DNA of 64,000 nucleotides from the NCBI RefSeq assembly GCF_029893105.1, contig NZ_JARXWG010000014.1:1-64000 (forward strand), given 5' to 3'. Numbering within the stretch: the stretch's first letter is position 1; every line of letters starts with the position of its first letter. This DNA is from Parabacteroides sp. PF5-9. GTDB taxonomy: Bacteria; Bacteroidota; Bacteroidia; Bacteroidales; Tannerellaceae. The notes under the pieces are model-generated. The model made no database searches. It saw only the letters and a list, made by a program, of their open reading frames with translations, and had not been told where the DNA came from. Shown here piece after piece: positions 1-48,564 of the stretch. The translations under genes and the position numbers were made by a program.

Positions 1-105
1 TCTGTTTTCTGTTAGAGGTACGTCTAAACAAATTTAGAGGTACCTCTAAATCGATTTAGAGGTAGGTGTAAAACATTTTAGAGGTACCTCTAACAGAAAA
101 GTGTT
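1..105 (-). repeat. Intergenic repeat element A, five-module 22-bp family (cut by window edge)
   Basis: Four near-palindromic modules start at 12, 34, 56 and 78, exactly 22 bp apart. Each is close to TTAGAGGTACCTCTAAA and they are joined by the 4-bp linkers CAAA, TCGA and ACAT. The right end at 94-105 is CAGAAAAGTGTT, the terminal repeat seen in copies B and D. The left flank TCTGTTTTCTG matches copy C, so the fifth module and the other end lie outside the window. Orientation is opposite to B and D. The element is downstream of pdxA and does not overlap a gene. Confidence 0.9.
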
Positions 106-11413: not shown

Positions 11414-11543
11414 AAACACTTTTTTGTTAGAGGTACCTCTAAATAATTTTAGACGTACCTCTAAACGGATTTAGACGTACCTCTAAATTGTTTTAGACGT
11501 ACCTCTAACAGAAAACAGAGGTAGGTGTCACAGAAAAGTGTTT
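11414..11543 (+). repeat. Intergenic repeat element B, five-module 22-bp family (complete copy)
   Basis: Imperfect terminal repeats, AAACACTTTTTTG at 11414-11426 and CAGAAAAGTGTTT at 11531-11543, match as inverted repeats at 12 of 13 positions. Between them modules start at 11427, 11449, 11471 and 11493. A fifth, inverted module (AGAGGTAGGTGT) starts at 11517, still in the 22-bp phase. In this orientation TACCTCTAA is constant and the left half varies (AGAGG or AGACG). Linkers are TAAT, CGGA and TTGT. It lies about 45 bp before the cysK promoter box. Confidence 0.93.
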
Positions 11544-31250: not shown

Positions 31251-33316
<2,066 letters not shown>

Positions 33317-41008: not shown

Positions 41009-41136
41009 AACACTTTTCTGTTAGAGGTACCTCTAAAATGTTTTAGACGTACCTCTAAATGAATTTACACGTACCTCTAAATTTGTTTAGACGTACCTCT
41101 AACAGAAAACAGACCTACCTGTAGACAAAAAAGAAT
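41009..41136 (+). repeat. Intergenic repeat element D, five-module 22-bp family (complete copy)
   Basis: The left end AACACTTTTCTG is at 41009-41020. Modules start at 41021, 41043, 41065 and 41087. A fifth, more degenerate module (AGACCTACCTGT) starts at 41111, still in phase. Linkers are ATGT, TGAA and TTTG; the first and third are identical to copy A read on the same strand. The right end CAAAAAAGAAT is a weak terminal repeat. Orientation matches copy B. Confidence 0.92.
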
Positions 41137-46545: not shown

Positions 46546-48564
46546 ATGCAAAAATACAACATTTTAGAACTAAATGAGAAACTCCTGCCAGAACTACAAG
46601 CGATCGCTGAGGAGTTAGGTATAAAAAAAATCAATAGCTTTAAAAAAGAAGAACTGGTTTATCGTATATTAGATGAACAAGCGATTTCATTAGCTGGTAT
46701 TCAGGTAGAAAAACAGAAAGAAAAAGAGGCTAAAAAAGCCGAAAGTCGTGTGAAAAAAGACCGACCGGAAAAAGCAACAAAAACTCCCGCAGCCAAAAAG
46801 GCGAAAACAGCAAAAGCTGAAGTGACTGCAGAGGAAAAGAAAGTTGTAAAAACGGTAGAAAAGAAACAACCTGAGGAAGAAAAACAGGCTGAACTGGATT
46901 TTCAACCTGAGCGTAAAAAAAGAGTTCGTATTGAAAAGAAAGAGAAAGTAGCAGGTGCTGCTGTCCCTACGGAAAATAATAAAGGAGTGGTCGTATCGAA
47001 AACGCCTCAAACAGTAGCAACCGTCATAGAAACTCCTGATGAAAAGCCAAAGAAAGAGAAAAAGGTAAAAAAGGAGAAAGATGATGTGGTTGAAATATCC
47101 GGTGAACAACCGTTACTTCCACCTGTTACAGCAGAAGCGAATAAGGAAGAACGATTACCGGAGGCTACGCAGGAAGAAAAAGTTGAAATTGTTCTTCCGG
47201 CGACAACAGAAGAAGAACCTAAAAGGGTTGTTTTCAGACATCCGGATGCAAAATCTGTCCTCGATCAGGTTTTTCCATTCTCCTCTTCTCCTACCAAACC
47301 GGAAACTAAAGTTCAGAATGAACAAAATAGCGTTCAACAACCTGGAAACAATAAACAGGTCAATAACCGTCAGAATAATCACAATAATAAGAATAACAAC
47401 AATAATAATGCTCCACAAGAGAAGATATACGATTTTGACGGTATCTTAACCGGAGTCGGTGTATTGGAAATGATGCAGGACGGTTATGGTTTCTTGCGTT
47501 CATCCGATTATAATTATCTGACTTCTCCTGATGATATCTATGTCTCTCAATCACAAATCAAACTGTTCGGTTTAAAAACAGGTGATGTCGTAGAAGGAGC
47601 TATTCGTCCTCCGAAAGAAGGTGAGAAATATTTCCCATTGGTAAAAGTCGATAAAATAAATGGACGATTACCGGAAGATGTGCGTGACCGTGTTCCTTTT
47701 GATCACCTGACACCGTTGTTCCCTGATGAGAAATTTATGTTGACGGCTCGTCGCTCGCCTAAGGTGCATGATCAGATTGCTGTTCGTGTGGTTGATTTAT
47801 TCTCACCGATAGGTAAAGGGCAACGTGGATTGATTGTGGCTCAACCGAAAACGGGTAAGACTATGTTGTTGAAAGATATTGCTAATGCGATAGCAACGAA
47901 TCATCCGGAAGTGTATATGATTATTCTTTTGATCGATGAACGCCCGGAGGAGGTGACAGATATGGCTAGAAGTGTCGATGCAGAAGTGATTGCTTCTACT
48001 TTTGACGAACCGGCAGAACGACATGTAAAAATTGCTGAGATCGTTTTAAATAAAGCGAAACGAATGGTTGAATGTGGACACGATGTTGTTATCCTGTTGG
48101 ATTCAATAACTCGTTTGGCTCGGGCTTATAATACAGTACAACCAGCTTCAGGAAAAGTGCTTTCCGGAGGGGTGGACGCCAATGCACTTCAAAAACCCAA
48201 ACGATTCTTTGGAGCGGCCCGTAATATAGAGAATGGTGGTAGTTTGACTATTCTGGCCACGGCTTTGACAGAGACCGGATCAAAAATGGATGATGTCATC
48301 TTTGAAGAATTTAAAGGTACGGGTAATATGGAATTACAACTGGATCGTAAATTGTCTAATAAACGTATCTATCCGGCAGTGGATATTACGGCTTCCAGTA
48401 CACGTCGTGATGATCTGTTACAGGATGATAGTACGTTGAACAGGATGTGGATTTTACGTAAATACCTGGCAGATATGAATTCGTTGGAAGCTATGGAGTT
48501 TGTAAAAAAACGTATGGAGAATACAACAGACAATATGGAATTTTTAGCTTCAATGAACGGTTGA
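46546..48564 (+). CDS. rho: Transcription termination factor Rho with large disordered insert
   Basis: Rho is the hexameric RNA-dependent ATPase that ends transcription. I use ATG 46546 (672 residues); the frame extends to 46513 but that N-terminus is not Rho-like. Domains: Rho_N at about 1-45, a charged Lys/Glu-rich linker at about 50-265, an Asn-rich stretch at about 266-287 and the RNA-binding cold-shock domain from about 295. Walker A QPKTGKT is at about 433 and [16 protein letters not shown] follows, with the Q/R loops. The insert is far longer than in Escherichia coli Rho (419 residues). A hairpin terminator follows the stop. Confidence 0.96.

Follow-up and report, generated by a model that had tools for sequence, protein, structure and literature searches.

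What are the four intergenic elements of near-palindromic modules, repeated every 22 bp, that punctuate a single contig of Parabacteroides sp. PF5-9? Elements A (1-105), B (11414-11543), C (33068-33193) and D (41009-41136) lie within a stretch of 64,000 nt, hereafter the window, and a sequence-only reading saw in them the layout that an array of dimer-binding sites or of ordered RNA hairpins would need, and expected many copies in the genome. We find that they belong to a high-copy family of arrays on a strict pitch, that relatives carry arrays of other sequence on the same pitch, and that an insertion sequence (IS) ends beside them at a fixed offset.

Four arrays on one 22-bp pitch

All four elements are present at the positions given above, and in each of them successive module starts are exactly 22 bp apart, as had been claimed. 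Tandem Repeats Finder returned period 22 at all four places, and when the window was searched for TTAGASGTACSTCTAA, allowing at most 3 mismatches, 17 matches appeared (100 shuffles averaged 0.62). Of these, 16 correspond to modules of A-D, and the remaining one is a 3-mismatch match at 48311. The array unit consists of a 16-bp module and a 6-bp spacer. Most modules are not true palindromes, one half being exact and the other carrying swaps between G and C.

In the orientation of B and D, relative to which A and C are reversed, the canonical order is AACACTTTTYTG, four modules, CAGAAA and a degenerate fifth module of the ACAGAGGTAGGTGTAA type in phase. Array B (plus strand, 11427-11508, modules at 11427, 11449, 11471 and 11493) is preceded by the left end AACACTTTTTTG (plus strand, 11415-11426), which is common to most copies in the genome according to flank alignment and per-position conservation in 68 loci, and is followed after CAGAAA by its degenerate fifth module, ACAGAGGTAGGTGTCA (plus strand, 11515-11530); flank alignment finds the same tail in most copies. 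Array D (plus strand, 41021-41102, modules at 41021, 41043, 41065 and 41087) leads into the degenerate fifth module ACAGACCTACCTGTAG (plus strand, 41109-41124). Array C, on the minus strand (33100-33181, modules at 33100, 33122, 33144 and 33166), has its degenerate fifth module at 33078-33093, also minus strand (TTACACCTACCTCTGT on the plus strand). Array A, likewise on the minus strand (12-93, modules at 12, 34, 56 and 78), has its left end, CAGAAAAGTGTTC, at 94-106, and lacks its fifth-module part because the window, and with it the contig, begins here and truncates the tail side (1-11). The four arrays were delimited from the sequence, Tandem Repeats Finder and the module scan, and the fifth modules from the sequence. 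The inverted fifth module proposed for B, C and D is in phase after a 6-bp spacer, is degenerate and has its better half on the opposite side. Apart from the contig that starts inside array A (window 1-105), several further contigs end at or beside arrays; short-read assemblies therefore break there, and the copy counts may be low.

A high-copy family with one exact half-site per module

The family extends far beyond these four loci, and the expectation of many copies is borne out. In the host genome of the window (G000; 3.69 Mb, 46 contigs), a four-module pattern allowing up to 2 mismatches matched 133 times per strand, with 0 matches of the backward control, a five-module array such as L112 scoring twice in this count; adjacent module pairs gave 319 matches per strand, again with 0 in the backward control. 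The gap was 22 bp between all modules in 68/68 host loci read in detail; 40 of these had been collected for their likeness to B and 28 taken from the pattern matches, and both routes favour that gap. The rule has independent support, since a period-21 pattern (5-base spacer) had no match in 123 genomes of the family and a sequence-blind scan (see below) recovered the same spacing.

The exact half-site TTAGAGGT is kept in 273/274 host modules, a regularity that would fit dimer binding sites. The opposite half reads TTAGACGT in 145 modules, TTAGAGGT in 70, TTACACCT in 37, TTACACGT in 21 and TTAGACCT in 1. At the A/T positions 1/2740 cells deviates and at the G/C positions 0/1644 cells hold A or T, both figures being favoured by the way the modules were collected, which allowed each of them one such deviation; the flanks do vary. 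Moreover, the exact halves point outwards: read 5' to 3', left-strong modules precede right-strong ones 17 times in the host genome and the reverse occurs once, and in four other carrier genomes the outward order was seen 14 times versus 5 for the reverse, in copies that are related rather than independent.

Within 59 distinct arrays, the outer ten module positions pair almost always. The inner pair 6/11, by contrast, survives in 63% of first, 10% of second, 12% of third and 20% of fourth modules; elsewhere it is C.C or G.G, the only forms in which the variable pairs break. These mismatches argue against selection for hairpins within modules and fit a protein that needs one good half-site. The strands of B, C and D do fold better than shuffles (z -6.5 to -9.7), which favours an ordered RNA hairpin array but which near-palindromes must show in any case, and Rfam has no match over the arrays, the window yielding only a tRNA and seven G010 loci one tRNA. 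Because the inner modules are systematically mismatched, and the C.C and G.G mismatches uncompensated, we rejected the RNA hairpin array, which we consider highly improbable. Of the original alternatives, the strictly phased, high-copy array of dimer-site build is supported and the hairpins are not.

The same letters can be read in another register, in which inverted 8-bp arms, ACCTCTAA and TTAGAGGT, enclose spacers of 6 bp that vary, and 11-bp units lie back to back. The modules would then be core sites of a tyrosine-recombinase-like enzyme, each with a variable 6-bp centre; the spacers, however, are constrained, with A....T in nearly all, no rearrangement was seen, and we give this possibility very little credence.

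Flanks and genomic setting

Flanking sequence is common to the copies on the left in 45/68 loci and on the right in 61/68, the likeness reaching about 150 bp on each side in the best copies and fading with distance. Such shared, fading flanks, which are more variable than the modules, indicate that the array belongs to a dispersed repeat, and hence that the copies are related and the counts are not independent. The array is bounded by inverted ends, TTTTYTGTTAGAGGT / ACCTCTAACARAAAA, beyond which the shared flanks extend; outer element ends and target duplications were recognised neither by flank comparison nor by a profile search, which was overfitted to its seed.

The arrays might be operators through which one global transcription regulator controls the adjacent genes, as their position partly suggests. 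Two callable neighbours were available at 60/68 loci by crude gene calls (8/68 being uncallable), and 29 of these 60 are divergent; array B was entered there as tandem owing to a spurious short reading frame and is divergent in the window count, in which an array occupies 3 of the 4 divergent gaps of at least 150 bp. The other 31/60 loci, however, are tandem (23) or convergent (8), the flanks are common through copying, and the neighbours, both in the window and at the loci read, share no function by eye. The seven scanned window neighbours match PdxA, type III pantothenate kinase, a PALP enzyme, an ATP-synthase-type ATPase, a beta-lactamase-fold protein, a PhoU-like protein and a class II tRNA synthetase. 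Furthermore, when 186 neighbour proteins were compared all against all with BLAST, few pairs from different genomes proved to be related, and at one locus both neighbours are shared. Operators of a single regulator are thus improbable.

Patchy distribution among relatives

Module pairs with the TTAGAGGT core were found in 5/123 genomes of the family, the host included. The other four carriers, with 66 (G018), 28 (G016), 24 (G094) and 23 (G008) forward-strand pair matches, each represent another genus of the family and have congeners that lack the module. In an order-level sample, 2/393 genomes matched (G000 and G008), and a narrower pattern applied to a collection of 84,980 species returned 11 stretches in three genomes, Massilibacteroides sp. 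STF2_31, Parabacteroides sp. PH5-46 and Parabacteroides sp. BH.2_3, all already among the five family carriers. Among the loci fetched from the four other carriers, 40/45 hold arrays by the same criterion as in the host, with gaps of 22 or 44. No core matches were found in phages, plasmids or viral contigs. In congeners of G008, two of three orthologous upstream regions show an ordinary terminator and lack an array, and one is coding.

Several of these loci have features of their own. At 440-740 of L051 (G008), a long inverted repeat encloses an array of seven units; its arms, 119 nt long with the array halves counted in, are 82% complementary, and the array is bordered by perfect arms that resemble terminators and have T runs. 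The same two genes, for a HAD hydrolase and an outer-membrane-type protein, flank arrays of differing sequence in two genera (L112 in G000 and L046 in G018). Arrays also lie upstream of related genes for HU-HIG DNA-binding proteins (66% identity) at L135 in G018 and L147 in G094, and the HU-HIG protein is a possible candidate for an array-binding protein.

Arrays of other cores keep the pitch

Arrays with a different palindromic core, of the GATAGCTATC / GACGGCCGTC type, comprise four units 22 bp apart and lie beside two IS copies in G018; this core was found in 3/123 genomes, with at least 7 loci in G018, 2 in G062 and 1 in G118. A sequence-blind scan covered about 1.02 Mb of seven family genomes that lack the TTAGAGGT core, using a refined detector that tolerates G/C swaps, was tuned on the window and recovers all 4 known arrays. 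Three-module arrays appeared solely at spacing 22; both are in G010 and have the core GCGCCCATGGGCGCA, and the scanned stretches of the other six genomes had no three-module array. At the two-module level there were 7 matches at 22 versus 12 over 18 other spacings, those at 22 falling in G010 (2), G030 (2), G020 (2) and G003 (1), of which the last three look like chance by eye. An earlier, cruder detector reported three-dyad arrays at 22 in the window (2/4 of those known), in G010 (2) and in the named 8-kb loci (2), and also spacing 33, which is one and a half times 22, in the window (3), the named loci (2) and G030 (1), and spacing 18 once, in G030. In 360 kb of stretches from five genomes of other families, no array was detected.

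A search with one of these two G010 arrays matched 3/123 genomes, with at least 7 loci each in G010 and G026 and 2 in G007. The arrays of G010 and G026 have three modules, with nearly constant outer halves and swaps in the inner halves, and at five loci shared by the two genomes they are conserved no better than their flanks (314/324 identical array positions versus 1432/1495 flank positions). At L269-L293 in these two genomes, the CCATGG-core arrays are often edged on one or both sides by an inward CTTTGCA-like sequence, which we take to be reminiscent of the -7 promoter box of Bacteroidales. Two further cores are TTCTCA..TGAGAA, with two modules at no fewer than 7 loci in G030, and GTTGATAATTATCAAC, with three or four modules at no fewer than 7 loci in G008. 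A joint query for both matched 13/123 genomes, some weakly, and the detector scored spacing 22 in 11/20 of its loci, three others not being centred on the match. With some relatives carrying other cores, it appears that the core is replaced and the pitch retained.

An insertion sequence ends at a fixed offset

A flank common to four loci was recognised as the end of an IS. Left ends of this IS, from which it is known here, right ends and target duplications not having been seen, occur at eight places in the host genome, all of them contig ends; 8/8 lie beside an array and face towards it. The IS start (TGTCCTGTCCTGAAATAGG) is 17 bp from the last intact module in seven cases and 39 in one, so that all eight are at 17 modulo 22. 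The IS interrupts the fourth module in two cases and lies in the fifth unit in three and in the unit beyond in one; the other two ends are at the opposite flank, in sequence without a recognisable module, and are still in phase. At L177 (G000), the initial 22 bp of the IS occur twice in tandem beside the array.

Two related IS copies in G018 match this left end at 86 and 85% over 78 and 72 nt, and downstream of one copy an open stretch of 117 aa has matches to rve_3 and rve_2; judged from this relative, the host IS is probably IS3-like. Beside the GATAGCTATC / GACGGCCGTC arrays of G018, the offset is 61 bp, or 17 modulo 22, at L178 and 16 at L180, the latter counted by hand where the script found no sufficiently good dyad. 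At L327 (G108), a 59-bp element with IS-like ends adjoins a GTTGATAATTATCAAC-core array at 39 bp, again 17 modulo 22; this element is the sole one on which the CA end was seen, the TG end being seen on the IS. Over three cores and three genera, 10/11 IS or IS-like ends beyond arrays are thus at offset 17 and 1/11 at offset 16. Outside that set, at L322 (G021), an IS-like end without an interior fills exactly the 18 bp that adjoin an array's first module.

The offset shows the pitch to be read by something, for which a bound protein would be the simplest explanation and a DNA structure a possible one. The search of the genome and its relatives that the sequence-only reading had advised thus returned the copies and the 22-bp phase it foresaw, together with other cores and a fixed-offset IS that it did not.

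Comparison with known systems

By analogy, the arrays may work like REP/BIME elements that serve as IS targets. Those elements, with their IS3-family partners IS1397, ISKpn1 and ISPsy8, are likewise high-copy intergenic near-palindromes in regular clusters, entered by an IS of the IS3 type at a single exact position and in a single orientation, as in the 5/5 ISPsy8 copies that lie in a REP at one point, according to the part of the report compared (PMC1525189). The eight host left ends similarly share one fixed point. Unlike REP/BIME elements, the present arrays have no looped hairpin, no GTAG foot and, in the host genome, no RAYT; they are defined by the 22-bp pitch, and their modules follow in direct order with outward half-sites, whereas REPs alternate. 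The RAYT transposase (PF01797) had 0 matches in G000 and G010 and is present in G008, G016 and G018. REP/RAYT units carry a GTAG or CGTC tag at one foot, in the portion of the description used here (PMC3733652), and by inspection of the sequences read, the array units start with TTA and end with TAA, with neither tag. Nor do the modules form the base-paired hairpin unit of 20-40 nt, the inner pair 6/11 being broken in 80-90% of modules 2-4. For want of a RAYT in G000 and G010, a foot tag and a conserved hairpin, we rejected membership of REP/RAYT.

Atypical structures, also present at other places in the genome, are reported to flank TnpA-REP subclass 2.6 of Bacteroidetes; they resemble our arrays in phylum, in lacking a GT[AG]G foot and in weak secondary structure; as far as that account was available for comparison, they differ in being tied to a RAYT gene, which the host genome lacks (PMC6006769). 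Some arrays may be among these structures, the comparison being one of descriptions. A 22-bp array accompanies 1/12 RAYT loci (L058 in G008, about 300 bp from the RAYT match), and the RAYT flanks inspected (5/12 loci) hold ordinary looped hairpins. BrickBuilt, a MITE of Porphyromonas gingivalis, is a dispersed intergenic element with a short tandem repeat from the same order; it differs in sequence, in its 23-nt repeats (1 to 22.8 of them) and in its IS5-like ends, and the part of its description compared mentions no palindrome rule (PMC4596501). With a period of 22 instead of 23, another sequence and no ends of the GAGACC type, the arrays were not assigned to it. Across REP/RAYT, BrickBuilt, Rfam, phages, plasmids and viral contigs, then, no match to a described REP or MITE was found, and the open-licence literature gave nothing relevant on such arrays in Bacteroidales. 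Operators of phage repressors, such as lambda OR, likewise have several dimer sites, spaced by about two helical turns and each made of a strong and a weak half; they number few per phage, versus a hundred dispersed copies of the array.

A proposed platform of dimer sites

We propose, with a probability of about one half, that the elements are REP/BIME-like intergenic platforms of putative protein-binding sites that an IS uses as landing pads. Each would be a dispersed platform on which four dimer-type sites follow in tandem at a pitch of 22 bp, which would place adjacent dimers on one face of the DNA and so permit joint, possibly cooperative, binding. In each module, a putative sequence-specific DNA-binding protein would recognise the invariant half-site, TTAGAGGT, and put up with swaps between G and C in the opposite half. 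The arrays would have multiplied by copying within a longer dispersed repeat, as REP/BIME elements do, with the core turning over among relatives and the pitch staying. An IS3-type IS would target the platform with its left end towards the array, 17 bp past a module and thus 3 bp past the dyad of the next unit, and we infer that it senses the occupied array rather than the base sequence. The case for a row of dimer sites comes from the pitch kept over different cores, the rule of one good half and the outward symmetry. Against it, the copies are related, and most of the loci read were found through the 22-bp pattern or likeness to B; array conservation between G010 and G026 is at flank level, the stretches surveyed in six of the seven family genomes had no three-module array, one IS offset is 16, and the IS-like end at L322 abuts its array.

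Some of the same observations would suit purely selfish REP/MITE-like repeats, in which the array serves the copying needs of a transposase, has no host protein or function, and is tolerated, or structured, as an IS target. Flanks that fade with distance (left 45/68, right 61/68), the patchy spread (5/123 family genomes), the diverse neighbour genes and the like divergence of arrays and flanks in G010 and G026 speak for such repeats. Near-invariant A/T positions of the host modules (1/2740 cells) amid variable flanks, the lack of recognised element ends and target duplications, the lack of a RAYT in the host genome and the pitch maintained over different cores speak against them, and we regard a purely selfish origin as rather unlikely.

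Tentatively, the platforms might represent an undescribed class of chromosomal arrays in which the 22-bp pitch and not the sequence is the conserved trait; the cores would be lineage-specific, each with a fast-changing coat protein, and the IS would read the pitch of the coat, 3 bp past the dyad, whatever the core. The REP/BIME idea would thereby be extended to a class defined by exact spacing and, in its richest genome, without a RAYT. One insertion offset beside three array sequences amounts to a natural experiment on the target choice of a transposase, and the identity of the bound protein would tell whether the arrays are nucleoid, defence or regulatory platforms.
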